Shown piece after piece: positions 21,796 to 38,274 of a stretch of 38,274 nucleotides of DNA. Within the stretch, counting starts at the first letter, position 1; every line of letters starts with the position of its first letter. Made by a program: the position numbers and the translations under genes. Source of the DNA: a virus; the IMG/VR virus record IMGVR_UViG_3300025886_000075, positions 1 to 38,274 of that record; one strand, 5' to 3'. The notes below the pieces were generated by a model. That model was not told the origin of the DNA. It worked only from the letters and a program-made list of their open reading frames with translations, and ran no database searches.

Positions 21796-24024
21796 ATGAC
21801 TAAAACACCTAAATTTGCCAAAATTGCCGGTCAGGAGCATATGCTGGCCTACATCAACCAAGCCGAACATGATATGCTTAAAAAGGCTGGCGGTGCGGGT
21901 GTTCCTGTTGGGCCAGCTAAAATTCCAGCTTACCCACCAGCTGCATATTATGCAGCACATTTAAAACAACAAAAATTAGATAAAATAAGAGCAAGAAACA
22001 AAAGGATCAGGGAAGCCAGGTTAGCTAGAGAAGAAGCGGCAGCAGCGGAAGCTAAAGCACAAGCGGACGCAGCAGCTAAATTAGCAGACGTTAAAGAAAA
22101 TGGAAACGAACCAGGCGCGCTTAGTGATGGCGGCATGGTCGAGGCGTTTTTTGACAGCATTGGTTTGGACATAGATGGCGATTTCAATGACGGTGTATCG
22201 GGGAGCGGCCCTAATCATGGAACGCGGTTTAGTTCTTCTGGAACTGGTACGGCTTTATTTGGCTCAAACGATGGCGTCACCGATCTAAGCAATGCGACAG
22301 CGGCTGAAGCGGCTGCATCAGCTGAGTTAGCGGCTAAAAACCAAGCAGCCTATGCACAAATGTACCAAGGATTGGCGGCAGCTGGCGTTACACTGAGTGG
22401 CCAGCAAACGGCTAATATTCCTGCAAACCAAGGCAACACACCAATTCTTCAGTTTAAAAATGGTGAATATTCTCTTGCTACTGGCAGTGGGCAGGGTGAA
22501 AATGGATCAGGAACATATACTAACAGGGACGGCAACCAAGTTCCTATCGTGCCGTTCGGTACGGGCGGATTAGACGGAACCCAAGAAGCATCAGTTTCCA
22601 CAAATGCAGACGGTACACTTTTCGTGCCTTACTCTGGAGCAGACCCCCACAGCATTAATAGAAATACAAATTTTATTGGTGATACCAACCCATTTCTTGC
22701 AAATGGTAACGTAAATGACAATTATAATATGTCAAAGGATTTAGCGGAAAACGGAGAGTATTCTGTTTCTGACGCTTTGCTTGGCTTGGGAAACACTATG
22801 ACAATTAACCCAGGTGGCGCAGGTAATGGATTTGAAACCACCGGCTACCAGGGGCCGAATGGCGAAACGACATATTACGATGGATTGGAAATAAAAAATA
22901 AAACGCTACGCGGTGACTCAGCATTTACCACAGATTTCGAAGGAAATGGCCCAGCGATTGTAAACGCAATTGCAAAGAAAACTGGCCTGGAGACTGGTGA
23001 CTTTGGTGGTATGGTTCTCTCTGATGGAGATGGCGGATATGTTACAGTAGATGGTGATGCTGTAGATGGAAAATTTGTTGAAGATACTGTAATAGATAAT
23101 GAGAAGATATTATCAGACGACGTTATCACAACGATATTTGATCCAGACCAAGAATGCCCAGAAGGTTATGAAAAGGTTAATGGGGCTTGTGTAAAGATTT
23201 CCGAAAACGCTTGCCCAGCGGGTTACCACCTTGAGAACGGCGTTTGCGTCCTTGACCACGGCGACCCAGATGAACCGTGTCCCACAGGTTATGAAAAAGT
23301 TAATGGCACTTGCGTTAAAATTAAAAAAGACGATGACATTATCAAAGACGATGACATTATCTCAGTTGATAATAGTGCGCTACTAGCCGCTAGAGCCGCG
23401 CGGGATGCAGCTTATGCGACCCAGCAGGGCAACATAACTGGTGCATTTGGTTTCGCCGACGATGGATACTATGACGGCTTGCGCGATGCTTACATGACCG
23501 ACAGCGATGGCCCATTTAAAACGGCCTATGACGACGCGCAGCGCGGTTTGATGGACGTCTTTAAGTCAGCTGGCTTACTCACTCAAAGCGGCGTTGACGG
23601 CAGTTTGAGCAACCTTACTGGCGCAAAAGGCACAGAAGAAAATCGCCTTGGTGGGTTAGCCGACGAGTATCGAGCCGCTAACAAGGGCTACGTCGATGGA
23701 GGTATTGGATCAGTAAATTCTGGTTTGGATGTTTTAAAGTATTTCAGTGAAGACGTCGCAGATATTAATAATCAAACGGCAAACATTAACGCTTACGACG
23801 TAACTGGCCTGTCATCGCCATACAAAACTCCGACTAATCAGGGTATTGCGGATTTCTTTACCGATTTTGCAAAACGCAAATATGATCCGTCCTACAACGT
23901 TGATCCAACGAAAACTACAAATAGTACAGCAAGACGTGTGACGGCGGCGAGTTCATCTCAGCCTTCGTCGCTACTTGGAATTAAAAGCCCCTATTCTGGG
24001 TCAAGCGTGAAGGTAATCCAATAA
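21796..24024 (+). CDS. large internal virion protein with Cys repeats, 742 aa
   Basis: A 742-aa protein. Residues 50-105 form an Ala/Arg/Lys/Glu coiled coil. Residues 110-430 are Gly/Asn/Asp-rich and probably flexible. Residues about 452-513 carry three Cys modules of the form CPxGYxxxNGxCVxI. Residues about 540-640 repeat the AF..(D)D..Y domain of the preceding 207-aa protein. The C-terminus is Ser/Thr-rich. Paired cysteines in a cytoplasmically made virion protein suggest folding or disulfides after export to the periplasm. Probable ejected or tail-core component; not a recognised family. Confidence 0.6.
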   Translation: MTKTPKFAKIAGQEHMLAYINQAEHDMLKKAGGAGVPVGPAKIPAYPPAAYYAAHLKQQKLDKIRARNKRIREARLAREEAAAAEAKAQADAAAKLADVKENGNEPGALSDGGMVEAFFDSIGLDIDGDFNDGVSGSGPNHGTRFSSSGTGTALFGSNDGVTDLSNATAAEAAASAELAAKNQAAYAQMYQGLAAAGVTLSGQQTANIPANQGNTPILQFKNGEYSLATGSGQGENGSGTYTNRDGNQVPIVPFGTGGLDGTQEASVSTNADGTLFVPYSGADPHSINRNTNFIGDTNPFLANGNVNDNYNMSKDLAENGEYSVSDALLGLGNTMTINPGGAGNGFETTGYQGPNGETTYYDGLEIKNKTLRGDSAFTTDFEGNGPAIVNAIAKKTGLETGDFGGMVLSDGDGGYVTVDGDAVDGKFVEDTVIDNEKILSDDVITTIFDPDQECPEGYEKVNGACVKISENACPAGYHLENGVCVLDHGDPDEPCPTGYEKVNGTCVKIKKDDDIIKDDDIISVDNSALLAARAARDAAYATQQGNITGAFGFADDGYYDGLRDAYMTDSDGPFKTAYDDAQRGLMDVFKSAGLLTQSGVDGSLSNLTGAKGTEENRLGGLADEYRAANKGYVDGGIGSVNSGLDVLKYFSEDVADINNQTANINAYDVTGLSSPYKTPTNQGIADFFTDFAKRKYDPSYNVDPTKTTNSTARRVTAASSSQPSSLLGIKSPYSGSSVKVIQ

Positions 24025-24632: not shown

Positions 24633-25754
24633 ATGGCTGAACGAAATCCTTACGCAATGGACCCGAATATAGCAGCGGGTTTTTCTAGCTTGTCTAGGGC
24701 GCTGCTCGGCTCGGCACAGGATGATGCTTCGATTGCCCAGGCAAATCTTGCAAATACCAGAGGTGAACTTGTTTCTGCGCAGACGGAAACGGAAAACGCT
24801 TTGCGAGATCATAGAGCAAACGAAATTTTGTCAACTATCATGTTAAGAGACGCGCAAGCCAAAACTAGCGGACAGCAAGGTCTTTTGTACGGTGCTCAAG
24901 CAGGTGGTCAAAATATTAAAAATAGAGGTATGGAAGGTAGGTTAGGTGCTTTTGAGGCACTTTCTAGCGACCCAGCAATGATGAACAGAGTATCGGAAAT
25001 GCTAGGAGTAGAGGGTGTTGACGCTTCTAGCCTTGTACGGTCTTTGTTTGATTTAGATAGTAACTCAGAGCAAATGCAAAGCGCATTAGCGAATATAGGA
25101 GTAGGCGCTGATCGTCAAACAGCCAGAACGATACAGCTTAATCCAAAATCAAGTAACTCAGACATCCTAACAGCTATGGCGATAGCTGACCCAACAACTT
25201 ACGCATCAATGATGAACAACACAGCTGACAATAGGCAGTCTGGTTTGAATAATGCAGCTGATAATAGGCGGTCTTTTTTGAATAATGAAGCTGATAATAG
25301 GCAGTCTGGTGGAGGCTCTGAAGACAGCGATGTAAACAGTTCAGCAGTAGGCACTAACATTGAATATGATCGTTTTACAAAATCATTTGAAAATGCAGTC
25401 ACTAATTTTGGAACAGAAACGATAATGACAATGCCAAATAGCGCATTGGCTTGGTTGCAAAGAGCAAGCTTGGAAATGTTAAATTCTGATATGGCGGATG
25501 GGATGGAATTCCAGGAAGCTTTTGATGAAAACGTTCTAAAAATAGTTCGAGGCGGCGTAATAAAGGCCAACATCGAAGGCACAGGTGGCTTGTTGAGCAG
25601 TGATGATACAGTCTCTTTCCCCAAATATATATTTGATTTTCACTTAAAGGACAAAAATAATAAAAAGCTGAGTGAAACAATAGACGAGATGGAATATTCG
25701 GAAGATGAAAAAGTCGCTATATTGAAAGCGTATTTAGCAGCCCTTCCCGATTAA
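24633..25754 (+). CDS. internal virion protein with 11-residue repeats, 373 aa
   Basis: A 373-aa helical protein in the T7 gp15 position but half its length. The N-terminal 90 residues are helical (AQANLANTRGELVSAQTETENAL). At residues 195-227 three tandem copies of NNxADNRxSxL occur, followed by a Gly/Ser linker. The C-terminal domain (about 240-373) is mixed alpha. AAAGG precedes the ATG. Likely part of the ejection apparatus; no family recognised. Confidence 0.55.
   Translation: MAERNPYAMDPNIAAGFSSLSRALLGSAQDDASIAQANLANTRGELVSAQTETENALRDHRANEILSTIMLRDAQAKTSGQQGLLYGAQAGGQNIKNRGMEGRLGAFEALSSDPAMMNRVSEMLGVEGVDASSLVRSLFDLDSNSEQMQSALANIGVGADRQTARTIQLNPKSSNSDILTAMAIADPTTYASMMNNTADNRQSGLNNAADNRRSFLNNEADNRQSGGGSEDSDVNSSAVGTNIEYDRFTKSFENAVTNFGTETIMTMPNSALAWLQRASLEMLNSDMADGMEFQEAFDENVLKIVRGGVIKANIEGTGGLLSSDDTVSFPKYIFDFHLKDKNNKKLSETIDEMEYSEDEKVAILKAYLAALPD
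25215..25313 (+). repeat. three tandem 33-bp repeats inside the 373-aa gene
   Basis: Units at 25215-25247, 25248-25280 and 25281-25313 are near-identical and encode NNTADNRQSGL, NNAADNRRSFL and NNEADNRQSGG. In-frame length changes by slippage would add or remove 11 residues. Confidence 0.85.
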
Positions 25755-25774: not shown

Positions 25775-28700
25775 ATGGCCGATTTTTATTACAGTTCATC
25801 CGCAACTAAAAAAAGACTTGAAGCAAACCAAAGATCGCTTTCTACAAGATCCGCTCCTGGCGGGTCTTATTATAGCTCTGCATCTACCCGTAAACGCTTA
25901 GAAGCATTAGACAGTTCACCGGCTGCATCAGCGGATTCTTCCGACGCTGTTGTTGCACTTCCTCCCACAGAGTTGCCGCAGCCGGTGGAACTTGCTGCGC
26001 CTAAATTGCCTGATGGTATCGTTTTTGATGGGGGTCAGTATAGAGTTGATCCAACTCACATTGCACAGCAAGAAAGTGTAGATGCTCAACGTGCTAACGA
26101 GCAAGCAAAGATTGATTTAGCAGCCCAGGCGGAAGCTATGTCGCTCCCAACAGAGGGCTTTCTTCCACAAAAGCAAGCATTCCCTTTTATAAAACCCGTT
26201 CCACAGCCTGACGCAAATCGACTTAACCCCCTGACTGAGCCAAGTGTTTTCAATTCTCGAACACAGGCCGCGTTAGCTGTTAAAAAAGCTGTAGAAGCGC
26301 AACCAGGCCCAACCAATGCTAAAAATGATATGGGGCTTTTTGAGGGTAAAGACGATTTTGGAACAGCTTTCGAATATGGTGATGTTAATACGCAAGCAAA
26401 TTTATTCGGGTTACAAGCAGACTTAGAGAAATCTTTAAGAGACAGCAGCGCGGGAGCGTTTATTCAACGCATCCAAAACAAAAGCTTGCCACTAATTAAT
26501 TCAGTTCGCTCGGCGCTTGGCATGGAGCAAATGAGCGAAAACGCGATGACCGACGCAAGTGTAGCTCAAGAGACTTACCTTAGAGGATCAACAGAAAGGC
26601 TATATCAATACGCTGAAGGGCTAGGCTTTAAGCCAACTGGACTTGACGAAATAAACGATTTTAAAGACTTTTTATCTTGGGCTAAGACGACTGCTGGCGC
26701 TAGTGGCGCTCCTATGCTTCTCTCTCTCGCAACTGCGGGGATGGCTTCTCCTATTCTTATGTCGGGTGAATTTAATGCAAATTTATCAGAGATCGAAGGT
26801 CTAGCTCCCAATGACCGCCTAAAATTAGCATTAGTTGGCGGAACGATTGCGGGTCTTTTGGAAAACGTAGGTCTTGGGGTTTTAATTAAGGGAATGCCTA
26901 AAGAGCTAGTTGGAAAAATAGGCGGGGCTGGGTTTTTAAAATTTATCAATCAAAAATACGGCTCTAAGGTAGCTGGGGCAGTGGCAACTGGATTAGCCGC
27001 TGAAGGCTTAACTGAATACGGTCAAGAAGAAATTGGTATTACGTTAGAAAAGATCGCTGGCCAAGAATTTAAAGATGGCGAATTGTCGTTAAGACGTAGA
27101 GAAGCCGCTGCTGGTGGGGCTTTGCTGGGCGGTGGCATGGGCGGATCACGTCAAGCGGTGTCTGGTGCGATTGACGGAGCAGCAAACTCGATTGCAGAGC
27201 ATAACGAAAATGCGATTGAAAATGCGGCAAGGTTAGGCTCATCCCAAACGGCCATTGAACTTTTAAGCCCTAGCTCAAGATTTTATCAGCCAGACACTAA
27301 ATTATCTGCAACACAGGCTGATATTGTGGCTGAAGCATCTCGTCTTGCAGACAGGATGGAAGCCGCTGGGGGGGTAGGTACGAATTTTGCTCGAGGTGTT
27401 CGCGCAAGAATCAATAATCTGCCCAATGACACAGAGCTTAAAGATAATGATTTAGACTTTTGGAGGGCCAAAGCTTCTGAGCTAGAAACCCCACCATCAG
27501 AAATACCCGATCAAACGAAAACTTTGCAGAGGTATTTTGAAACAAAGAAAGGCCGCTCGAATACTCAAGCAAAGTACGAAAAAGTTATAAGTGATGGGTC
27601 TTATGCACCCATTATCCAACAAGCCGAAGCCCGCATGAACGAACTCGCAAACCAGTTAAAGGAAATGGGTTTCGATAATACTAAATTGCCAACAATTCTT
27701 CCGCCCGAAGCAAAAGCTATTAAAAATGAAATTACTTCTTTGGCTGGGATAACTGTTCGCTTAATCAACAGACAAGCGGCAGCGCTTGCTGGAAATAAAA
27801 AGTCTAAAGGTAAGACAACATACGCCCAAGATGCTGACGAAACAGCTATGAACTTGGCACAACAGTTAGGCAACGGAAGCCTTACAAACTCTGGCGCAAA
27901 CGTTACCCCACTTGACCAAACAGAAATTCCGACAATTCAAGCTGGTAGCAATTTTAAAGGTGGTGAATTCACACAACAAACGATCCCAGCAGCAGATCAA
28001 CTTGAGGCGACAACCGGCCCTGATGCTTTGGCGGCGACACAAAGAACTTCTGAAGGCCCAGAAATTTCATCACAAAATCTCGATCCGCTACAAGTGCTGA
28101 ATTTATTCCGTTCTGAGTTTGAAGGTTCGCCAGCTGCTGCTGCACCTGGGGCAGTTATAGATGCGAATACAGCAGCTGGTTTTCAAAATAATTCTAAGGT
28201 GCGGCCAAGTCAAACTCCTATAATTCCACAAGATGATGTGTCTTCGTTTGTACCGCCGACGCTGCCCAAAGGACTAACAAATCCAGAGATAGCTGTAAGC
28301 GAAATGCCAGAAGGTAATACTTCGTTTGTGCCGCCGCAGGGCGTTATAAATCAAGAACAAGCAGCTGCTTTCGGCGCAAACGTAACAAAAAATACACCGT
28401 CAAACGTTGTCACAACTCCGCCATCTGAAATAATTGACCCCAAGATACCCGTAAGCGAAATGCCAGAAGGTAATACTTCGTTTGTGCCGCCGCAGGGCGT
28501 TACAAATCAAGAACAAGCCGCTAATATTTCCGAAAGCGGCAAGCAAGTTATAAGTGATCCAGAAGCTGTTAAAAACGATAGCGAATCAAATGTAAAACCC
28601 CAGCCGCCATCTGAAATAATTGACCCCAAGATACCCGTAAGTAAATCCCCCGAAACCGTTAATTCGCCTGTGGTAAAGATAGCTGCTGCGGATACTCTGG

Positions 28701-31700
28701 AAAATCCACAAGCACCAGATGTCGCGCCCGTAGCCAAAGAGCTACCGAACAAGCCTGTGGTTTCAGTTCAGTCGCCAGATGGTCAAGCAAAGTTTAATGT
28801 GCAGGGCAGAGTGATCGAGCTTGCTGATCTCAAGCAAGCAACCGGCGTTTTTCAGCCGCGTGATCGAAGCCGAAAAGGCAGTGAAGTATTAGCGAAAGAT
28901 CGAGCCGGTTCAACGTTTAATGCAGAGCGCCTTTTGGACGATCCAACTTCTGGATCAGGTTCGCCAATTATAGCGCGTGACGGCACAATCATGTCAGGCA
29001 ACGGTCGTGTTCTTACAATTGCGGAAGTTTACGCCAATCAGCCAAAAAGCTTAAAGTCTTACCAAAACTCGTTAAAGAATGCCGGTATCGACACGACAGG
29101 GTTCAGCCAGCCGGTTTATGTTCGTCAGCTAAATGACGATATGACGATTGATGATCTAAAGTCCTTTGCAAAGCTATCAAATACAAACGCGCAAGCTGAT
29201 TTGTCTGTAGCCGAGCGATCCATTAATGACGCTCAAAAATTAACTCAAAGCAACATAATCGACACTTTTAACGGTGACTTCGATATCGATGCTGCTGCAA
29301 ACAGAACATTTATTACTGAGTATGCAAAAAAGGTATTATCACCCACTGAACAGGGAGTTTTCTTTCAATCAAACGGAAACATTAGCGCCGAAGGAATAAA
29401 TCGTGTGCGCGGTGCTTTGCTTGCGTCAGCTTTTGAGAACAGCACAACAATTTCTAAAATGCTTGAGGCCAGCGACAACAACATTAAGTCTATCGGTAAT
29501 GCTTTTGTGGCAGTTGCTCCTAAATTTGCGCAAATTAAGCGTCAGATCGCAAACAATGAGACAGATGTCCAATGGGACATAACCCCACAATTATCAGAAA
29601 TGGCTAATTTAATTAGTCAGTTGCGAGCCGACGATGTAAAAGTAGCTGATTATTTTGCTCAGAATGATATGTTTGGAGCAAAAGACCCGCAGGTAGAAGA
29701 ATATGTAAGAGCGTTTTACAAAGAAGACCTTTCGTCCGCGATCAGCGGGAAAGCCATGCGCGAATTTCTTACTTTTTATGCAAATGAAGCGTTACAAAAG
29801 AAACAAGGTGGACTTATACCTGATACGACGACACCCAAAGACGTGATAAATTTAGCCGTCACTAAGCAAAGAGAAGAGCAAAATGCAAAAAAAGGAAACA
29901 ATCAAGGATCGTTCCTTGAGCCTAGCGGCGCAAAGCAAGGCAATGATGCGCGTCGCAAACAAGTACAAAAACCCCGAAATGCGCCAAGCCGCAATAAATC
30001 TGAAGAAACTAAGCCAGAAAAAGACATAAGCACGATACCTGACGGTCAAGTTTTTAACACTAAGTCACAAACTCTGCGCCAATCCCTATACCGCAGCGCC
30101 TTCGCTGAAGCTGGTTTCGATCCAAAAAGATTGGAAAATGCGCCGGTTGAGCGCAAGTTTCAGATACTAAGCAAGGTAACTAACGAAAAATTTGGCTTAA
30201 AGTTTATTGCGCCGCCAGAGCAAGGCGCAGCAAACAATCAAGTAAATCAGCTGCTCGATGCCTATCACAATTTAAGTTGGATGACACACAGCCTGGGTAT
30301 GCCCAGCACAGCAATCGGTCTTGAAGGTACTTTGGGCCTCACCTTGCCGAGTAAGGTAGGGCGCTATTTAGGCGTTTACGTGCATGGAGGAATATCTTCA
30401 GCGGGGTCTGACGTTGCACCAATGGAAGGCCCGTTTATTAGTATGCCAGAGCGAAGCAATAGCTTTGCGCACGAATGGGCCCATGCTTTAGATTTTCATC
30501 TGATGGAAAAGTATGGCGGAAACAATGCTGCTGGCATCTCTGGCGTCATCCGAGCCAACAACAAATTGGGGGATCGAGCCTGGGATGCAACTACACCGGC
30601 TAACGTGAAAGAAGCCTTTGCTCGCGTTATAAATTCCATGTATTTTGACAATGCTGAGTTTGCCGCAAAGCTGATGGCGCTTGAGCATAAAATTTCTGCT
30701 GCTGCTGCGCGTCAGGCGAAAAACGGAAAACCGAACAAAACCCTGGAAGCAGATCGTCTAAAGCTAGAAAAACTTCTCGAAGGAAGTACCCGCGCAAAAA
30801 TACTAGCTACTGAATATAGAAAGAAATCTGGCGAGTTTGGTCGGAGTCAAAACAAAGAAAATTATTACAAAAAGCCGACCGAAATGTTTGCTCGCAGTTT
30901 TGAAGCATATATCGCGCGATCTGTTGAAGCTATAGGTGGGCCAAACGAGTTCATCACAAAAGGCGACAAATCTTACCAGGCAGCGGTAGACCAGTTGAAG
31001 GGCGCTGATGATCGGCTTGCTATGTCTTTCCCAAGGGATCAGGAGCGTCACCGAATATTTTTAGCGATGGATCAATTAATGGAGGCTATGCGCCTAGAGG
31101 CGTTTGCAGCGGGTCAAACAGCTAACAAGCCAAGCGATTTAGACACAACGGATGCCGTAGCGCAATTTTATGGTGATCGTCAAATCGAAGAACGCACAAA
31201 GATTTTATCATTACCTAAAAAAGTGGTTAATGATATGATTGCGGATCAAAAGAGAGCGGTACGCATAGCACAAAACAGAGCGGCTGAAGCAAACAAACGC
31301 CCATCGGATTTCAAGGGCGATACATGGTGGGAGCGTAAGTCCAACCAAATTACCGACACTTACTTGGGAAATTTTGTAAACTCCAAGCGCCAAATCTTAT
31401 TTAACTACAGCAAGCGATATAAAGATAACAAGAAAATCCGCGCAATAATGGAGGACATAATAAGTAAGGTTGCGACTGATCCTGGCTCTTTGGACAATCG
31501 AGTTACGTTTAAAAACGGAACGTTTGAGGAAGCGGTGCGAATTAACTCGCGCCGGTTTAATGCTATTTTCGATAGGCTGCGCCAGAAGCATAAAATAGAT
31601 GAGTTAAATGGCGATGGACTTAAAAATTTACGTTTAATTTTAGTCGGGGACACAAACGCGACGGCAGCAGCGAGCGAGCAAGTTATCGAAATGGCATCAG

Positions 31701-34000
31701 ATTTAAGACGCCAGCTTTTAAATCCTATCTATGACTACATGGTTAAGAATAACCAAAACGTAAATTACATCACTAACGCTGGCTACATGCCCAGAATGCT
31801 GGATGCTCGTCTGGTGATTAGCGAGCAGAAAAACTTTATTGGTGAACTAAAGGGCAAAAAGGGAGCAATTCCACTTTACGAGCAAGTCATTTACGAAAAC
31901 GAATATGGATCATTTGACGAGGGTAACACAGAGCAAATGTCATCCTTGGCCAGTTTAGCGAATTCTAAATCATTAGAATCCGTGGCTGACCTTACTTTCA
32001 ACAACGTGACGCTGAAAGAATTACAGACGATTAGCGCCAATATAAAAGACCAGCTGAAAGAAATAAAAAGTTTGGACGCCGCAATAGAAAGCAACACTGG
32101 CGACATCGACGTTGAAGGGCTGCAAGAAACTATTTCATATATCACTGAAGGTCTAATCGACCAACACGCAGAGCTTCACGAAGGGTTACGACCGTTTTAC
32201 GCAACGGCTGCGGGTAAAGATTTCCATAACAGAATAGTTTTGAGAAACGGATCAGACCCAAGCGTGAATGGTGTCCAGGGAAGCTTTGCGAAAAAACGAA
32301 GCCTCCCAGCTGAAGCGGATGTTTTTCTGGCGGACTTCTATTTAAACCCGGTTGAGGCGATAATGGAGTATATTCCAGCAACAACTCGATATACGGAATA
32401 CAACGCTCGTTTTGGAAGCCACCTTATTCCAAAGGGCAAAGGAAGTAATGACGGTCGAGATTTCTTAGATTACTCGCTTGAAGAAGCCTTGCTTGCAGGA
32501 ATGAAGCCACACGAAGCGCGAGAAGTTGCAACCGTCGTAAAAATAATTACTGGACGGTACGGCGGTCAAGACGATTTGCTTTCAAAAGCTTTCAATACTC
32601 TAAACACGTATGGAACAATGAACCTTTTGCCGCGAGCAGTACTAAGCTCGATTGCGGAGCCGATTACGGCTGCCATTCAAACAGGCAACGTGAAAGACGG
32701 ATTTAAGAATTTTGCTTACTCATTTGATGGTCTTTTGGCTACAAAAAGCGCTCGCGAGCGTAAGCAATATTACAGTCAGCTTGCAAATGTCTTGGGCGTT
32801 ATTGATTTGCCTCAGAGCGGCGATATAATCGCAAACCGCGTGGGCGGCGTTTCAGAGGAAGATGCAAAAAACACAAAGCGTTTGGGAGTGTTTTTCCAGC
32901 GAACCTTCTTGACGGGTATTACAAACGCTCAACGACGCGCATCGATGCGTATCGGACTGCAATACATTATTGGTCTCGCAAAACAGTATCAAGACAACAA
33001 ACAATCAAATGATCCCTCAGAAAATAATATGAAAACTGAGGCGGAATCAGCTTTAATGGATTTTGGTATTTCACTAGAAAACATGAGTAAATTTACAGAA
33101 TACGCTTCTAATTTAAATCGTGATGAAAAAGGCTTTTATGACATTTCAAAAATCATGGAAGCATCTGGGGATTTAACGGACACTGGCCGAATGTTTGCGG
33201 TTGCTGTGGGCAGATTTGTTGACCAAACAATCCAAGATCCAAAAATTGTGGATCGTCCGAAGTGGGCTGAAACACCAGTGGGTCGGTCTGTGTTTGGAAT
33301 TCAGAGTTTCATAGCAGCGTTTCAACGAAACGTTCTGGAAATGTCAGCAAAGCGAGCCGTTCGTGATTTTAAACAAGCTGGCGCTGCTGCTGGTACTGCG
33401 AGGCTTGGCAAGAAGATGGTCTTACCCCTGGCAAGCCTATACATAGCGCACACGTTAGTTTCCGCTGCGCGTGAGGCAATATTTAATCCCGAAAAGTGGG
33501 AAGAGGAACGAGAAAAAGGGACGCTTATACAATATTTGATGACTCTTGGCATTTCGCGATCTGGCATGACCGGCAGACTTGATCCAATCGTAAACGGTTT
33601 TGTTTCACTTAAGTATCGTGCTGATCTTTCAAACGTAGTGGTCGGTGCTACGGCTAGTATGTACCTCCATTCAATTCAGCGGATTGCTGGATTGGCGTCA
33701 GACGCTAACTCTAAAAATACTCCAACGGCTGAATACCAGGCTGCGCGGGGCGCATATGACATTGTAGTCCCAGCACTTATGGGTCTGGCAACCGTAAATC
33801 CATACGCTGGGGCTGTGGCTGGCGGAGCGCTTGGTATATCAAACATGGTGATTACATCGCCCAGGTTTAAAAAGGCTGTCCTCAAAAAATTTGTTGAAAC
33901 TGGAACGGGACAAGAGTATCAGTCGAGAAATCAAAAAACAAATTCTTCTAGCGGCTTTGGAAGCAGCGGCGGGTTTGGAAAAGGCGGCTTTGGGAATTAA
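25775..34000 (+). CDS. giant polyvalent ejection protein: DdrB-ParB and zincin domains, 2741 aa
   Basis: About a fifth of the window. Residues 1-60 have two copies of YYSSxxTxKRLEA. Hydrophobic stretches lie near 304-330, 347-374 and 444-470. Residues about 840-960 are a repeat linker. Residues about 998-1300 match a DdrB-like ParB domain (FQPRDRSRKGSE; GSPIIARDGTIMSGNGRVL, about 1060-1078). Residues about 1430-1780 match a zincin-like polyvalent-associated domain (LPD1 type) with HEWAH at 1566-1570 and a third-ligand candidate E1703 or E1710 in PTEMFARSFEAY. The rest (1790-2700) is helical, with hydrophobic segments near 2548 and 2665-2700 and a Gly/Phe-rich end. Such proteins are thought to be injected with phage DNA and act in the new host. 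It follows smaller internal proteins, as T7 gp16 does. Confidence 0.85.
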   Translation: MADFYYSSSATKKRLEANQRSLSTRSAPGGSYYSSASTRKRLEALDSSPAASADSSDAVVALPPTELPQPVELAAPKLPDGIVFDGGQYRVDPTHIAQQESVDAQRANEQAKIDLAAQAEAMSLPTEGFLPQKQAFPFIKPVPQPDANRLNPLTEPSVFNSRTQAALAVKKAVEAQPGPTNAKNDMGLFEGKDDFGTAFEYGDVNTQANLFGLQADLEKSLRDSSAGAFIQRIQNKSLPLINSVRSALGMEQMSENAMTDASVAQETYLRGSTERLYQYAEGLGFKPTGLDEINDFKDFLSWAKTTAGASGAPMLLSLATAGMASPILMSGEFNANLSEIEGLAPNDRLKLALVGGTIAGLLENVGLGVLIKGMPKELVGKIGGAGFLKFINQKYGSKVAGAVATGLAAEGLTEYGQEEIGITLEKIAGQEFKDGELSLRRREAAAGGALLGGGMGGSRQAVSGAIDGAANSIAEHNENAIENAARLGSSQTAIELLSPSSRFYQPDTKLSATQADIVAEASRLADRMEAAGGVGTNFARGVRARINNLPNDTELKDNDLDFWRAKASELETPPSEIPDQTKTLQRYFETKKGRSNTQAKYEKVISDGSYAPIIQQAEARMNELANQLKEMGFDNTKLPTILPPEAKAIKNEITSLAGITVRLINRQAAALAGNKKSKGKTTYAQDADETAMNLAQQLGNGSLTNSGANVTPLDQTEIPTIQAGSNFKGGEFTQQTIPAADQLEATTGPDALAATQRTSEGPEISSQNLDPLQVLNLFRSEFEGSPAAAAPGAVIDANTAAGFQNNSKVRPSQTPIIPQDDVSSFVPPTLPKGLTNPEIAVSEMPEGNTSFVPPQGVINQEQAAAFGANVTKNTPSNVVTTPPSEIIDPKIPVSEMPEGNTSFVPPQGVTNQEQAANISESGKQVISDPEAVKNDSESNVKPQPPSEIIDPKIPVSKSPETVNSPVVKIAAADTLENPQAPDVAPVAKELPNKPVVSVQSPDGQAKFNVQGRVIELADLKQATGVFQPRDRSRKGSEVLAKDRAGSTFNAERLLDDPTSGSGSPIIARDGTIMSGNGRVLTIAEVYANQPKSLKSYQNSLKNAGIDTTGFSQPVYVRQLNDDMTIDDLKSFAKLSNTNAQADLSVAERSINDAQKLTQSNIIDTFNGDFDIDAAANRTFITEYAKKVLSPTEQGVFFQSNGNISAEGINRVRGALLASAFENSTTISKMLEASDNNIKSIGNAFVAVAPKFAQIKRQIANNETDVQWDITPQLSEMANLISQLRADDVKVADYFAQNDMFGAKDPQVEEYVRAFYKEDLSSAISGKAMREFLTFYANEALQKKQGGLIPDTTTPKDVINLAVTKQREEQNAKKGNNQGSFLEPSGAKQGNDARRKQVQKPRNAPSRNKSEETKPEKDISTIPDGQVFNTKSQTLRQSLYRSAFAEAGFDPKRLENAPVERKFQILSKVTNEKFGLKFIAPPEQGAANNQVNQLLDAYHNLSWMTHSLGMPSTAIGLEGTLGLTLPSKVGRYLGVYVHGGISSAGSDVAPMEGPFISMPERSNSFAHEWAHALDFHLMEKYGGNNAAGISGVIRANNKLGDRAWDATTPANVKEAFARVINSMYFDNAEFAAKLMALEHKISAAAARQAKNGKPNKTLEADRLKLEKLLEGSTRAKILATEYRKKSGEFGRSQNKENYYKKPTEMFARSFEAYIARSVEAIGGPNEFITKGDKSYQAAVDQLKGADDRLAMSFPRDQERHRIFLAMDQLMEAMRLEAFAAGQTANKPSDLDTTDAVAQFYGDRQIEERTKILSLPKKVVNDMIADQKRAVRIAQNRAAEANKRPSDFKGDTWWERKSNQITDTYLGNFVNSKRQILFNYSKRYKDNKKIRAIMEDIISKVATDPGSLDNRVTFKNGTFEEAVRINSRRFNAIFDRLRQKHKIDELNGDGLKNLRLILVGDTNATAAASEQVIEMASDLRRQLLNPIYDYMVKNNQNVNYITNAGYMPRMLDARLVISEQKNFIGELKGKKGAIPLYEQVIYENEYGSFDEGNTEQMSSLASLANSKSLESVADLTFNNVTLKELQTISANIKDQLKEIKSLDAAIESNTGDIDVEGLQETISYITEGLIDQHAELHEGLRPFYATAAGKDFHNRIVLRNGSDPSVNGVQGSFAKKRSLPAEADVFLADFYLNPVEAIMEYIPATTRYTEYNARFGSHLIPKGKGSNDGRDFLDYSLEEALLAGMKPHEAREVATVVKIITGRYGGQDDLLSKAFNTLNTYGTMNLLPRAVLSSIAEPITAAIQTGNVKDGFKNFAYSFDGLLATKSARERKQYYSQLANVLGVIDLPQSGDIIANRVGGVSEEDAKNTKRLGVFFQRTFLTGITNAQRRASMRIGLQYIIGLAKQYQDNKQSNDPSENNMKTEAESALMDFGISLENMSKFTEYASNLNRDEKGFYDISKIMEASGDLTDTGRMFAVAVGRFVDQTIQDPKIVDRPKWAETPVGRSVFGIQSFIAAFQRNVLEMSAKRAVRDFKQAGAAAGTARLGKKMVLPLASLYIAHTLVSAAREAIFNPEKWEEEREKGTLIQYLMTLGISRSGMTGRLDPIVNGFVSLKYRADLSNVVVGATASMYLHSIQRIAGLASDANSKNTPTAEYQAARGAYDIVVPALMGLATVNPYAGAVAGGALGISNMVITSPRFKKAVLKKFVETGTGQEYQSRNQKTNSSSGFGSSGGFGKGGFGN
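28295..28518 (+). repeat. 68-bp direct repeat pair in the giant gene linker
   Basis: 28295-28362 and 28451-28518 differ at one base, 156 bp (52 codons) apart, and encode VSEMPEGNTSFVPPQGV plus NQEQAA. They overlap the start of another repeat pair at 28418. Confidence 0.85.
28418..28641 (+). repeat. 38-bp direct repeat pair in the giant gene linker
   Basis: 28418-28455 and 28604-28641 appear identical and encode PPSEIIDPKIPVS. The spacing of 186 bp is a multiple of three, so recombination between copies would keep the frame. Confidence 0.85.
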
Positions 34001-34233
34001 ACGTAATGTAGAGCGCAGAGATTTCTAAAAAATAAGTAAAAACAAAGGTTTGCAGAGGTTAAAATAGCACTAGCCCGACCAGCATCCGTTATGTAGAGCA
34101 GTGTCGAAGGGCCTGCTCTACTTGGTTTTTATAGCAAATTTAAAATTTTGTAGGCCATTTTGTAGGACTGGAACGGACAATCAACAGCACAATTTGCGTT
34201 TTTAGACCAGTAAAACGCAATGTTGAGCGCAGA
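34000..34233. other. attP candidate region with repeated motifs
   Basis: Non-coding 234 bases between the giant gene and integrase. A 20-bp imperfect direct repeat (18 of 20) sits at 34000-34019 and 34214-34233 (core ATGTWGAGCGCAGA), with a partial copy at 34091-34101. A second repeat, ATTTTGTAGG, occurs at 34145-34154 and 34157-34166. These could be integrase arm-type sites. No tRNA 3' end or core sequence can be recognised, so attP is inferred from the adjacent integrase only. Confidence 0.45.
34093..34130 (+). terminator. late-operon terminator
   Basis: GTAGAGCAG (34093-34101) pairs with CTGCTCTAC (34113-34121), then TTGGTTTTT. It ends the rightward late transcript before the convergent integrase gene. 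Confidence 0.85.
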
Positions 34234-34234
34234 A

Positions 34235-35299
34235 TTAATCAACTACATCGCGCAGATAATCTGGCGTCAAATGTAGATAATTTTTTCGCACTGTCTTTTC
34301 CGTGTCGCCCAGAAACATTGCAATTTTTGCAAGAGGTACACCTTGCATCGCCTTGTGTGTGGCCCACGTGTGCCGAAAAACGTGAGCAGTAAGTCCACTA
34401 ATTTGTGTATCTCTACTCATTTTCTTCAAATCATAATCTATGCTGGTTTTGCGATCTAACACATAATCGCTAATTCGCTGCTCGTAAGCGCATTCCAGAA
34501 CCGTCCTCAATCTTGAAGAGATAGGCAGCGGGACACGTCGCTTTGTTGTCTGCGCTCTGCCTTCTGGCAAAAACGTAATAATATTGTTTTCAAAATTCAC
34601 TCTCGACCAGGTTAATTCTAAAATTGAGGTTTTTCGCTGCGCCGTTTCCATCGCCAAATTTACAAATCGAGACAGCCGACTTAACCTATTTGATTTTGCT
34701 ATTATGCGTGGCAACGAATTCTCATCACAGTGATTTTGCAAAAAATCGCGCATGGTTTGTAATTCTTCCTGCGAAAAAACGCGATCACGCGGCAGACCCT
34801 CGGGCGGGAGTTCTAAATATGGAATAATTTTTTCACTTATTCGGCGCTCGCGCGGCTCCACACGTTTTTGAAGAAACGTGAAACAAGCCCTCAGTGCTTG
34901 GAGTTCTCTTCGTACTGTCGCGTTTGCGGCTTTATTTTTACCAATTTCACCTGCGAAGCGAAGCAATCCGTATTCTACGGAGTGCCTCCTCGTGATTTCT
35001 GAAATTCTCTTATGGCCGAAAAATTTGGTTAGATGTTTTATTATAGAAGGATATCGCTCTTCGGATAACATTCTACCTTTGATCCATTGTTCATACCAAA
35101 GATGAAGCGCCTGATCTACAAGCGGGTCGTCGTCAACAATCGTATCACTGTTGTGAGCGTCTAACCAACCCTGGAACCTTTCGGTCGCGATTCGTAGATC
35201 AGTCGTCCGCAAAGTTTTTCGCTGGCTACGTCCGTCGTTGAAATAAACGTAAAAGTTCCGACCTTCTGTCCCGATCCTGGGCGGCTTTTTTTCTCGCAT
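34235..35299 (-). CDS. int: tyrosine integrase
   Basis: A site-specific recombinase for lysogeny, 354 aa from the ATG at 35299, preceded by AAGGAC at good spacing. An alternative TTG at 35323 adds 8 residues. The N-terminal part (about residues 75-170) is a SAM-like core-binding domain. The catalytic residues are visible: R222 in AQRKTSIL, H306 and R309 in HVFRHTWATH, and Y341 in KNYLHL. The expected second-helix phrase LAKIAMFLGDTEKTV is also present. It is transcribed leftward, convergent to the late operon, from the repressor operon. Its 5' end overlaps the HTH gene out of frame. Confidence 0.92.
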   Translation of the reverse strand: MREKKPPRIGTEGRNFYVYFNDGRSQRKTLRTTDLRIATERFQGWLDAHNSDTIVDDDPLVDQALHLWYEQWIKGRMLSEERYPSIIKHLTKFFGHKRISEITRRHSVEYGLLRFAGEIGKNKAANATVRRELQALRACFTFLQKRVEPRERRISEKIIPYLELPPEGLPRDRVFSQEELQTMRDFLQNHCDENSLPRIIAKSNRLSRLSRFVNLAMETAQRKTSILELTWSRVNFENNIITFLPEGRAQTTKRRVPLPISSRLRTVLECAYEQRISDYVLDRKTSIDYDLKKMSRDTQISGLTAHVFRHTWATHKAMQGVPLAKIAMFLGDTEKTVRKNYLHLTPDYLRDVVD

Positions 35300-35457
35300 T
35301 TTTCTGTCCTTATTTTCAAACAACTTTCGTAAGTTACTCGCACCAGACTATCTGTCGGTCGGACTGTCGTGAGTCGCTTGTTTTTACGCAGCCGATAGAT
35401 CGTTTTAATCGACACGTTTAACATGACAGCGGCCTGGGCCTGGGTAAGTAGTTCCAT
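35161..35457 (-). CDS. excisionase-like HTH protein
   Basis: A 98-aa frame whose first 50 residues (MELLTQAQAAVMLNVSIKTIYRLRKN, then VRVTYES) match the MerR/excisionase-type HTH that directs integrase toward excision. The last 46-54 residues overlap the integrase start out of frame and look unstructured, so the functional part is probably the N-terminal half. The ATG follows the repressor stop with no gap. An AAAAAAA run near the integrase start would place a -1 slip into the integrase frame, so a fusion product is possible but unproven. Confidence 0.6.
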   Translation of the reverse strand: MELLTQAQAAVMLNVSIKTIYRLRKNKRLTTVRPTDSLVRVTYESCLKIRTEKCEKKSRPGSGQKVGTFTFISTTDVASEKLCGRLIYESRPKGSRVG

Positions 35458-35868
35458 TTATTTTTTTTCGTTTAGAATAGCCATGACGCGCATTGCTTGC
35501 TCAGAATCAACGTGCTGATTCACGTGCAGCCATACTTTGCCATCATCGCCCACTTGCTGGATTTGGAACGTTGGAATTTCTTTTGCAGCTGCCACTCCAG
35601 CCTGGTTTGGAAGTAAGTCTTCGGGCGCAACGTTAAGCGCTCGTGCCAATTTATTCAGGTTTTGAGGAGATGGAGTGTTACGTCCGCGAACGTACTGAGA
35701 AATACTGTCTCGCCCTAACCCGCTTGCGCGAGCAAGCTCGGATTGGCTCATGTCTTGTTTCATCATTTGTTGCCAAACGCGCCGACCAAATTCTGCTTTA
35801 ACAATAAATTTTCTCGTTAGGTCAAGCTCTGAGTTAGCGTCTAAACGTGAATTTATGTGGTCCGGCAT
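35458..35868 (-). CDS. XRE-family repressor (CI-like)
   Basis: A 136-aa repressor. Residues about 27-83 form an XRE helix-turn-helix domain (FGRRVWQQMMKQDMSQSELARASG, GRDSISQYVRGRNTPSPQNLNKLARAL). The C-terminal 45 residues are short and lack the S24 peptidase (Ser-Lys) domain of LexA-cleavable repressors, so induction must use another route, such as an antirepressor. It is divergent from the Cro-like gene, with operators in between. AGGAAAAAGGT precedes the ATG. Confidence 0.85.
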   Translation of the reverse strand: MPDHINSRLDANSELDLTRKFIVKAEFGRRVWQQMMKQDMSQSELARASGLGRDSISQYVRGRNTPSPQNLNKLARALNVAPEDLLPNQAGVAAAKEIPTFQIQQVGDDGKVWLHVNQHVDSEQAMRVMAILNEKK

Positions 35869-35904
35869 ACCTTTTTCCTTTGAAAGTTTGATTAATTGTA
35901 ATTT

Positions 35905-35933
35905 TTAATACAGCCAAACTGGCCGGTTGGCAA
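35905..35933 (-). promoter_or_regulatory. promoter of the repressor-excisionase-integrase operon
   Basis: Minus strand TTGCCA (35933-35928), 17 bases, TATTAA (35910-35905), 36 bases before the repressor start. Sequence match only. Confidence 0.55.
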
Positions 35934-35962
35934 GAAGTTTCAAATTTATGATGAGACACAAC

Positions 35963-36039
35963 ATGTAGACAATTTTATCGATGTCGATCGACATTTATGA
36001 CTTGACCGCGACAGAATGGCTGTTAATGTAGTCGACAAT
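35963..36039. promoter_or_regulatory. operator cluster of the lysogeny switch
   Basis: Three related sites: ATGTAGACAAT (35963-35973), the perfect palindrome ATGTCGATCGACAT (35981-35994) and ATGTAGTCGACAAT (36026-36039). The last overlaps the -10 of the rightward promoter. This fits repressor or Cro binding in the divergent region. The rest of 35869-36076 holds no ORF. Confidence 0.6.
36002..36029 (+). promoter_or_regulatory. rightward early promoter (PR-like)
   Basis: TTGACC (36002-36007), 16 bases, TAATGT (36024-36029), with an operator across the -10. It is 48 bases upstream of the Cro-like GTG start. Confidence 0.5.
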
Positions 36040-36076
36040 GTGTGACAGCGTTTAATATTTAATAAAGGAATGAATA

Positions 36077-36295
36077 GTGTCAGACGTTAAATTCGACTCA
36101 AGAAAATTAGTGAAAGATTTTGGTGGAATCACTGCCACCGCGAGAGTGTTGACAGCTGATAGCTACACAATCTCAGCGGACGGAGTTGATAAATGGCGGC
36201 GCCGCAACACGGTGCCTTTTCAAGCGATTTTACATTTAATAAAAATCGCAAAACGCAATAACCAACGGTTCGATTTGTCGGATTATTTGGCCTAG
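36077..36295 (+). CDS. Cro-like HTH protein
   Basis: A 72-aa protein with GTG start (AAAGGAA seven bases upstream). The pattern VKDFGGITATARVL..DGVDKWRRRNTVPFQAILHLIKIA matches the small Cro/carph-isopro-type HTH ('FGG...A..l......V..W.....vP'). It is the first gene of the rightward early operon, opposite the repressor, which is where Cro sits. It should repress or modulate the same operators. Confidence 0.75.
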   Translation: MSDVKFDSRKLVKDFGGITATARVLTADSYTISADGVDKWRRRNTVPFQAILHLIKIAKRNNQRFDLSDYLA

Positions 36296-36314
36296 AAAGA
36301 TTAGTGGGGAAAAA

Positions 36315-36512
36315 ATGATTAATCAATACAATGAACATTTTAATATACCACCAGTGTATCAATGGACGCAAATTTTTAGCAAAGTACATCACTGGGATAG
36401 AAGACTGCAAAGAATGTTGAAAAAAGATTTGAGTGTTTATTCTGCCGGTTCGAATATGTCCTGGGCAAACCTTAACAGGATTGCGGGGCCACCAAAAAAT
36501 GTACAAAATTAA
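36315..36512 (+). CDS. hypothetical small protein, 65 aa
   Basis: Unknown 65-aa basic protein, with the segments YNEHFNIPPVYQW and HHWDRRLQRMLKKDL. AGTGGGGAAAA precedes the ATG. It overlaps the next start by 14 bases. No domain visible; an early phage regulator or host-takeover protein is possible. Confidence 0.55.
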   Translation: MINQYNEHFNIPPVYQWTQIFSKVHHWDRRLQRMLKKDLSVYSAGSNMSWANLNRIAGPPKNVQN

Positions 36513-36744
36513 ACAAATAACCAAATTAACCCGCGATTTACGTGAAATCGAAAAAGAGTTAATTACTGAAACGGATCATCGTTTTAGAAACCAAATGCTC
36601 CTTTTGGCCGCCGATGTTTTCCTCGCTAAAAACACCCGCGAGCCTGACAAAGCACACGCTTCATATATTCTTCGAACACATCAGCCGCTAGACACTGAAG
36701 TCTATTGCTGCTCTCTTCGACGAGAATTGGCGCGTACCGAATGA
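36499..36744 (+). CDS. hypothetical small helical protein, 81 aa
   Basis: Unknown 81-aa protein from the ATG at 36499, predicted mostly helical (TKLTRDLREIEKELITETDHRF; QMLLLAADVFLA). The frame is open to 36433, but that stretch duplicates the end of the previous gene in another frame, so the inner start is preferred. Its TGA overlaps the first ATG of the duplicated resolvase start as ATGA. Confidence 0.6.
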   Translation: MYKIKQITKLTRDLREIEKELITETDHRFRNQMLLLAADVFLAKNTREPDKAHASYILRTHQPLDTEVYCCSLRRELARTE

Positions 36745-36779
36745 TTTGGGGCATAGACCAATGATTTGGGGCATAGACC
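36740..36779 (+). repeat. exact 20-bp tandem duplication at the resolvase start
   Basis: Two identical head-to-tail copies of AATGATTTGGGGCATAGACC (36740-36759, 36760-36779). The first copy gives a micro-ORF MIWGIDQ (36741-36764) whose TGA overlaps the real start as ATGA. Confidence 0.9.
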
Positions 36780-37225
36780 CAGGCGTGTCGGGTGCTGTTG
36801 TTTTTTTCGACGCTCTGGAAGGTGTGTTGGAAATTCACGATATGCCAATTCTGGAAGTGAAAAAGAAGAAGCAAGTTTCACCTCAACTCCTGTCAAACAT
36901 CCTAAAACAACACCACGCTCCTCTCTACATTGAACAGGTAGGCGCCATGCCTGGTCAGGGCGTGACCAGTATGTTTAACTTTGGAAAGTCCTACGGTATT
37001 TGTTTGGGGGCGGCTGCTGCGTTGCAGCTGCCCACAACAACCGTCGCACCGCAAACCTGGATGAAAAAAATTGGCAAGCCGCAAGGTAAGGACGGGAGCC
37101 GAGAGCGAGCTATCCAAGTATTCCCTGCGTTTTCTCAATCTTTTGCACGTAAAAAAGACGATGGCCGCGCGGATGCGGCCCTCATCGCCTATTTTGGCTT
37201 TATTTTTGGTGAAAGTGTTGAATGA
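36761..37225 (+). CDS. RuvC-like Holliday junction resolvase
   Basis: A 154-aa RNase H-fold resolvase. Acidic catalytic candidates are D6 in MIWGIDPGVSGAVVF, E58 in LYIEQVGAM, and D134/D138 in KKDDGRADAALIAYF. A MFNFGKSYGICLGAAAA helix lies in the middle, as in phage RuvC-like proteins. It would cut branched DNA made by recombination or before packaging. The frame is open to 36746, but the 36761 ATG is preferred because the motif starts right there. It is followed one base later by the nuclease gene. Confidence 0.85.
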   Translation: MIWGIDPGVSGAVVFFDALEGVLEIHDMPILEVKKKKQVSPQLLSNILKQHHAPLYIEQVGAMPGQGVTSMFNFGKSYGICLGAAAALQLPTTTVAPQTWMKKIGKPQGKDGSRERAIQVFPAFSQSFARKKDDGRADAALIAYFGFIFGESVE

Positions 37226-37226
37226 T

Positions 37227-38054
37227 ATGACCAACAAGAACGGATTTGAGACACATGGCATCGAGCGCGTCAGCTGCTCAAACGTAGCAAAATTCAGACA
37301 AGCCCCTTCCGCGTGGGCTGTGTCCTACTTAAAAAAAGAACGTTTCACTGCTGGTTGGGCCGCTTGGCAGGGAAGCGCAGTCGAAGCTGGTGTTGACGCT
37401 GGCCTATATCACGCTGCGCGAATTGACGAGTGTGTTGAAATAGCGCTCAAAGAATTAAACGAACTCAGCATTTTTGGGAATAATAAAGCCGTCGAAATGG
37501 AAAAGCGGACCCCGATTGTAACGAGGATGGTTACAACTGCGATGGAACAGCTTTCCCCTTTAGGCACACCTGACATCCCTGTGGATGGCAAGCGACAACA
37601 CGAAATAAATATCCCTGTCCGCTTTGGCCCCAACGAAGCAGACACTATAAATTGTCTTGGGTTTTTGGATTATCGATGGACTGAAGGGCGTCACAAAAAC
37701 AACCCCTTAGTCGTTGATCTAAAGACCACTTCGAAATCGCCGTCTGAGTTTTCTCTGTCACACGGAATTCAGGCGGCGGTGTATGAACGGGCCGTCTCCA
37801 TCGAGCTAAAACGGCCAGTTGAAATGAAATTTTTGTACGTCCTCACACGTCAAAAAGACCCTTTCACCTGGCTTACGATGGAAGATGGCCCGTTCTACTT
37901 AGAAAGTTTTAAAAAAACTGTGGTGCAGATGGAGGCTTTTCTCAGTCTTTCGGACGACACAGATAAGCTAATGCGAGCAATCCCGCACGATCCAGACACA
38001 TTTTACTGGAGAGGTGGGAATGCGGACGAGCTTCTTCAGAAATACTACAGTTGA
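37227..38054 (+). CDS. RecB-like PD-(D/E)XK nuclease
   Basis: A 275-aa nuclease from the ATG at 37227; an upstream open frame to 37071 overlaps the resolvase and is rejected. The C-terminal part holds the PD-(D/E)XK signature of RecB/Cas4-like exonucleases: GFLD (D148), VVDLKTT (D164, K166), and GIQAAVYERA (Q182, Y186). The N-terminal 60 residues resemble the entry helix of these enzymes (SNVAKFRQAPSAWAVSYL..WAAWQGSAVEAG). No Fe-S Cys set is seen. Together with the resolvase it suggests a phage recombination pathway in which a single-strand annealing or RecA-like partner would lie beyond the window. Confidence 0.8.
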   Translation: MTNKNGFETHGIERVSCSNVAKFRQAPSAWAVSYLKKERFTAGWAAWQGSAVEAGVDAGLYHAARIDECVEIALKELNELSIFGNNKAVEMEKRTPIVTRMVTTAMEQLSPLGTPDIPVDGKRQHEINIPVRFGPNEADTINCLGFLDYRWTEGRHKNNPLVVDLKTTSKSPSEFSLSHGIQAAVYERAVSIELKRPVEMKFLYVLTRQKDPFTWLTMEDGPFYLESFKKTVVQMEAFLSLSDDTDKLMRAIPHDPDTFYWRGGNADELLQKYYS

Positions 38055-38274
38055 GCGCGACGAAGGTTTTTCGAGTATCCAGGAGGATGCTCACTTTGAC
38101 GAGCAAAAGTTGTGGTGGAAGGTGCTATATCAAGTTGTCGTGGATGGTGGAAAACTCGACCATCAAAATTCGACGAAGCGGAATAATGCAAAGGTTGCCG
38201 TTCATTGGCTGCTAAACGACCAAGAAGATTTTTTTCACGTTTGCTTCTTAGCCGACGTGAACCCAGACATTTTT
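38020..38274 (+). CDS. hypothetical protein, cut by the right window edge (at least 85 aa)
   Basis: Open to the end of the window. It starts at the ATG at 38020, with GGAGAGG upstream, overlapping the nuclease end by 35 bases. The visible part contains KLWWKVLYQVVVDGG, and then VAVHWLLNDQEDFFHVCFLADVNPD. The pattern 'WL...DF..VC.LA...P' is one I associate with short unknown phage proteins. The end is missing. Confidence 0.6.
   Translation, partial: MRTSFFRNTTVERDEGFSSIQEDAHFDEQKLWWKVLYQVVVDGGKLDHQNSTKRNNAKVAVHWLLNDQEDFFHVCFLADVNPDIF

Follow-up and report, generated by a model that had tools for sequence, protein, structure and literature searches.

Genes and features at the locus

The stretch of DNA analysed here (the window) is a virus record of 38,274 bases. 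It carries an integrase, a CI-like repressor, a terminase and a head-tail adaptor-like gene, and because of these genes the phage is most likely a temperate tailed phage. The site of interest is the start of a gene that had been called a resolvase in the original prediction, an assignment that is upheld by a profile match: residues 1-147 align to positions 5-148 of the 158 positions of phrog_1770 (Holliday junction resolvase; Table 1). A Pfam match to this protein was absent at E 0.1. Residues D6, E58 and D133 are invariant across eight aligned sequences and a later position is always acidic (D or E); together we take these to be the RuvC-type catalytic residues. Judged from the protein sequence, Holliday-junction cleavage is the predicted function. 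The gene upstream of the resolvase matched neither Pfam nor PHROG, and a protein search of the viral_contigs collection gave no relatives of it. Elsewhere in the window, positions 25775-34000 hold an ORF of 2741 aa in which ddrB-ParB and LPD1 polyvalent-protein domains were recognised and which has internal repeats near 28287-28641. A further array of 33-bp tandem repeats (2.7 copies) lies at 25222-25310, and a sibling contig (L038/L040/L041) has a repeat array whose period is the same and whose DNA matches.

Table 1. Features around the resolvase start, in window coordinates.
Feature	Position	Strand	Evidence
Upstream gene, 81 aa, function unassigned; stop overlaps first ATG (ATGA)	36499..36744	+	Homologue in L003/L005
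Repeat copy 1	36740..36759	+	Exact copy
Micro-ORF MIWGIDQ, made by the duplication	36741..36764	+	Sequence; absent from relatives
GGGG in copy 1, weak Shine-Dalgarno-like site before second ATG	36748..36751	+	Duplex -4.7 kcal/mol
Repeat copy 2, carries true resolvase start	36760..36779	+	Exact copy
RuvC-like Holliday-junction resolvase, 154 aa	36761..37225	+	phrog_1770 E 2.1e-33; conserved acidic residues
PD-(D/E)XK nuclease, next gene downstream of resolvase	37227..38054	+	PF12705 E 1.8e-4, 22 bits vs cut-off 22

The resolvase start is an exact tandem copy

At the resolvase start the 20-mer AATGATTTGGGGCATAGACC lies twice head to tail, at positions 36740-36759 and again at 36760-36779. The neighbouring bases differ (g/c before, c/a after), which limits the unit to exactly 20 bp, and a search of the window with up to three mismatches found no third copy. 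With uniform bases, about 3.5e-8 exact 2x20 tandems would be expected in the window, and none of 100 shuffles gave two matches to the 20-mer; chance is therefore no explanation for the repeat.

The reading frames across the two copies are also as originally predicted. The stop codon of the upstream ORF (TGA, 36742-36744) overlaps the first ATG (36741-36743) as ATGA. From this ATG a micro-ORF of the codons ATG ATT TGG GGC ATA GAC CAA TGA encodes the seven residues MIWGIDQ, and its stop overlaps the second ATG at 36761, the true resolvase start, in another ATGA (36761-36764). It had further been proposed that the duplication thereby rebuilds a double coupled start. The ATGA overlaps are real and, as described below, widespread in relatives; design is not needed to account for them. 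A gene stays intact after any tandem copying in which the unit takes in its start codon. Where that start lies in an ATGA and the unit measures 3n+2, the frame opened by the extra ATG closes on the TGA of the next ATGA unless an earlier stop intervenes. Mostly by arithmetic, this coupled geometry is thus to be expected for about one third of all tandem copies across an ATGA start, with no need of selection.

Relatives carry a single start

The closest relatives are L003 and L005, which are identical in sequence and come from two metagenomes; their resolvase is 95% identical to that of the window. They carry one copy of the start only. A homologue of the upstream gene lies at the same location (52% identical over 65 aa; synteny and tblastn) and ends CCC GTA TGA, and the resolvase starts once, on that ATGA. 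In L004 (75%) the resolvase likewise has a single start, which overlaps the preceding gene as ATGA. The single start of L036 reads GCATGAAG. In L006 it is a Cro-like gene that immediately precedes the resolvase, whose start reads ATGATGATATGG. Homology of the upstream genes was also scored by shuffling. The score is strong for the window and L003 (z 34.5) and lower for L003 and L004 (z 7.6), L003 and L036 (z 6.3) and the window and L036 (z 4.8). For the window and L004 it reaches only z 2.3 (10 of 300 shuffles were as good). An unrelated Cro control scored z 3.1 against the window, and for this reason the weak scores are not relied on. The region between the Cro and resolvase genes (36277-36760) is a hypervariable pocket, which is absent in L006, where Cro abuts the resolvase.

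With alignment A2 the scan was widened, and the best 80 of 583 relatives were kept. Including these, 113 loci were examined, leaving out L031, which is partial, and L034 and L035, which are the contigs of L005 and L003 again; dropping identical start regions gave 101 distinct resolvase starts (among L003-L135). Comparison with relatives had been named in advance as a check on the duplication, and every relative examined, L003 and L005 included, has one copy. No exact tandem repeat of at least 9 bp was present within 80 bp of the start in any of the 101 distinct starts (0/101, including the best 80 of 583 relatives), and the micro-ORF was not found in relatives. In the same set (again with the best 80 of 583) 71 starts lie on an ATGA overlap, 6 on a 1-nt overlap and 24 are of other types; the count of 71 is conservative, as ATGATGA starts of the L006 type were counted as other. 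As far as can be read from these sequences, the ATGA overlap is an old and common trait of the resolvase family, which is mildly useful for annotation, and the doubling is private to a single record, the relatives examined (including the best 80 of 583) being single-copy.

In viral_contigs the exact doubled junction had no match, and neither did a degenerate pattern made to catch doubled starts in general. The single-copy allele of this phage was also without a match there, and the collection may omit very near records. Thus, no near-identical record over this site was found in viral_contigs, and the absence of the doubled junction says little. The phage collection gave no DNA matches and, by protein, 101 records, all below 60% identity. 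In genome_contigs 54 pattern matches for resolvase relatives were obtained, none of which was confirmed.

Possible origins of the doubled start

Since a single record is the only source of the doubled start, the real phage might have one copy, with the assembler having kept a 20-base overlap twice or merged variants wrongly. Such an artefact would fit the single copy in all relatives examined (including the best 80 of 583) and the missing doubled junction in viral_contigs, and 20 would equal k-1 if the assembler used a 21-mer graph (k = 21). However, the search of viral_contigs for the single-copy allele was equally empty, and the gene order across the junction matches that of L003 and L005, which makes it unnecessary to suppose that unrelated pieces were wrongly joined. 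A 20-bp tandem also lies well within ordinary read length. Moreover, a second assembly bears out another tandem copy in this record. This is an exact 18-bp, in-frame copy at 23326-23361 (KDDDII twice) within an ORF of 742 aa. It recurs in the near-identical record IMGVR_UViG_3300001349_000130 (G007; contig L043) and is absent in two relatives (L044 and L046) whose versions of the protein are 76% and 72% identical. G007 spans window positions 8509-28718, ending before the resolvase, and differs from the window by 11 mismatches, which are real SNPs, without gaps over 12,287 bases (99.9% identical), with no mismatches over 4,226 and over 3,697 bases. Its sharing of the 18-bp copy indicates that short exact tandem copies are real, recent events in this phage. 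Events of this class are not rare. A count of exact tandem copies between 12 and 60 bp gave three in five control phages (together 209,894 bases), all from the same genome, and two in the 38,274 bases of the window. An assembly or sequencing artefact hence seems unlikely to us, albeit worth keeping in mind.

The doubled start could also be the scar of a module exchange with its breakpoint at the conserved resolvase start, copy 1 and copy 2 stemming from different parents. DNA similarity to L005 is seen at 33894-36276 (78%) and 36761-38274 (87%) and is undetectable at 36277-36760; over its full length the upstream gene is 43% identical to that of L005 in amino acids, compared with 95% for the resolvase. 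However, similarity to L004 likewise begins at 36761, as is expected if the upstream gene simply evolves fast, and both parents would have needed identical 20-mers. Divergence between the window and L005 is uneven inside the resolvase, with a 71% stretch at bases 91-180. A sharp recombination breakpoint is therefore not supported, and we regard an exchange scar as improbable.

We consider it probable that the doubled start is a recent, ordinary 20-bp tandem duplication at an ATGA-overlapped resolvase start, made by replication slippage or template switching. Either process would copy a 20-bp unit spanning the start codon; the resolvase stays whole since the unit contains that codon and, with 20 = 3n+2, the frame of the extra ATG ends on the stop of the next ATGA. 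Between the resolvases of the window and L005, 27 of 67 fourfold sites differ. Because the two copies are identical in spite of this divergence, the duplication most likely arose after the window and L005 split; later homogenisation of the copies could mimic such a recent origin. A fresh slippage event had been suggested at the outset. Its recency fits the identical copies and the single copy in relatives, and exact adjacent copies that relatives lack are what slippage leaves. The microhomology that is usual, albeit not universal, at the ends of slippage-type duplications was not found as a perfect match at the unit ends, where only an imperfect ACC is present; slippage itself is therefore no more than likely.

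Possible effect on translation

Ribosomes that end the upstream gene at 36742-36744 might restart at 36741, make the seven-residue peptide and restart again at 36761; alternatively, ribosomes might start directly at 36761. We infer these paths from the arrangement of the codons. The duplication places UGGGGC 8 nt before the true start, where its anti-SD duplex is computed at -4.7 kcal/mol, compared with a best value of -3.0 at 15 nt for the first ATG. The probability of being unpaired at -12..-5 is 0.85 before the second ATG and 0.54 before the first; the start codons themselves are equally paired (0.38 unpaired each), and RNA structure around the start showed no consistent pattern. Values for L036 (SD and accessibility, 3 bases off the true ATG) and L006 (second of two adjacent ATGs) were excluded. 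Such calculations hint weakly that initiating directly at the true start may have become slightly easier, to be set against the burden of a second relay, and the net effect on the resolvase level is probably small, in either direction. For the tuning of resolvase translation that had been suggested at the outset, the weak SD-like GGGG is the sole evidence.

Both the duplex and the accessibility would suit a selected regulatory device, in which the added SD-like GGGG and relay ORF alter resolvase translation. However, 15% of random positions are as strong as -4.7 and the median of 26 gene starts in the window is -5.45, the coupled geometry has a prior of about one in three, and a doubling found in one record only (against 101 distinct starts, including the best 80 of 583 relatives) bears no sign of selection. 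We thus consider such a device very improbable. Even less credence goes to an array of variable copy number, in which each unit would bring a start, an overlapping stop and an SD-like GGGG, and slippage would tune resolvase translation with the gene unbroken. If copy number did vary in the population and changed resolvase output, slippage would act at this locus as a dial for translation that never disturbs the frame. As it stands, the site is a small and recent duplication of an ordinary kind.

Comparison with known systems

The resolvase itself resembles the phage RuvC-like resolvases of phrog_1770 in its profile match and its conserved acidic residues, and the doubled start is the sole notable difference of the window gene. 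With short tandem duplications made by slippage the site shares two exact head-to-tail copies confined to one lineage; here, however, perfect flanking microhomology is missing and the unit spans a start codon.

Overlapping stop and start codons, as in termination-reinitiation coupled gene pairs, are present at both 36741-36744 and 36761-36764. Huber et al. 2019 (PMC6728339) report termination-reinitiation at such overlaps in Haloferax volcanii for 9 of the 9 pairs analysed, and in E. coli for all analysed pairs but one. The window has in common with the ATGA coupling described there the 4-nt stop/start overlap and an SD-like site before it. It differs from that description in having two serial ATGA overlaps with a 7-codon ORF between them.
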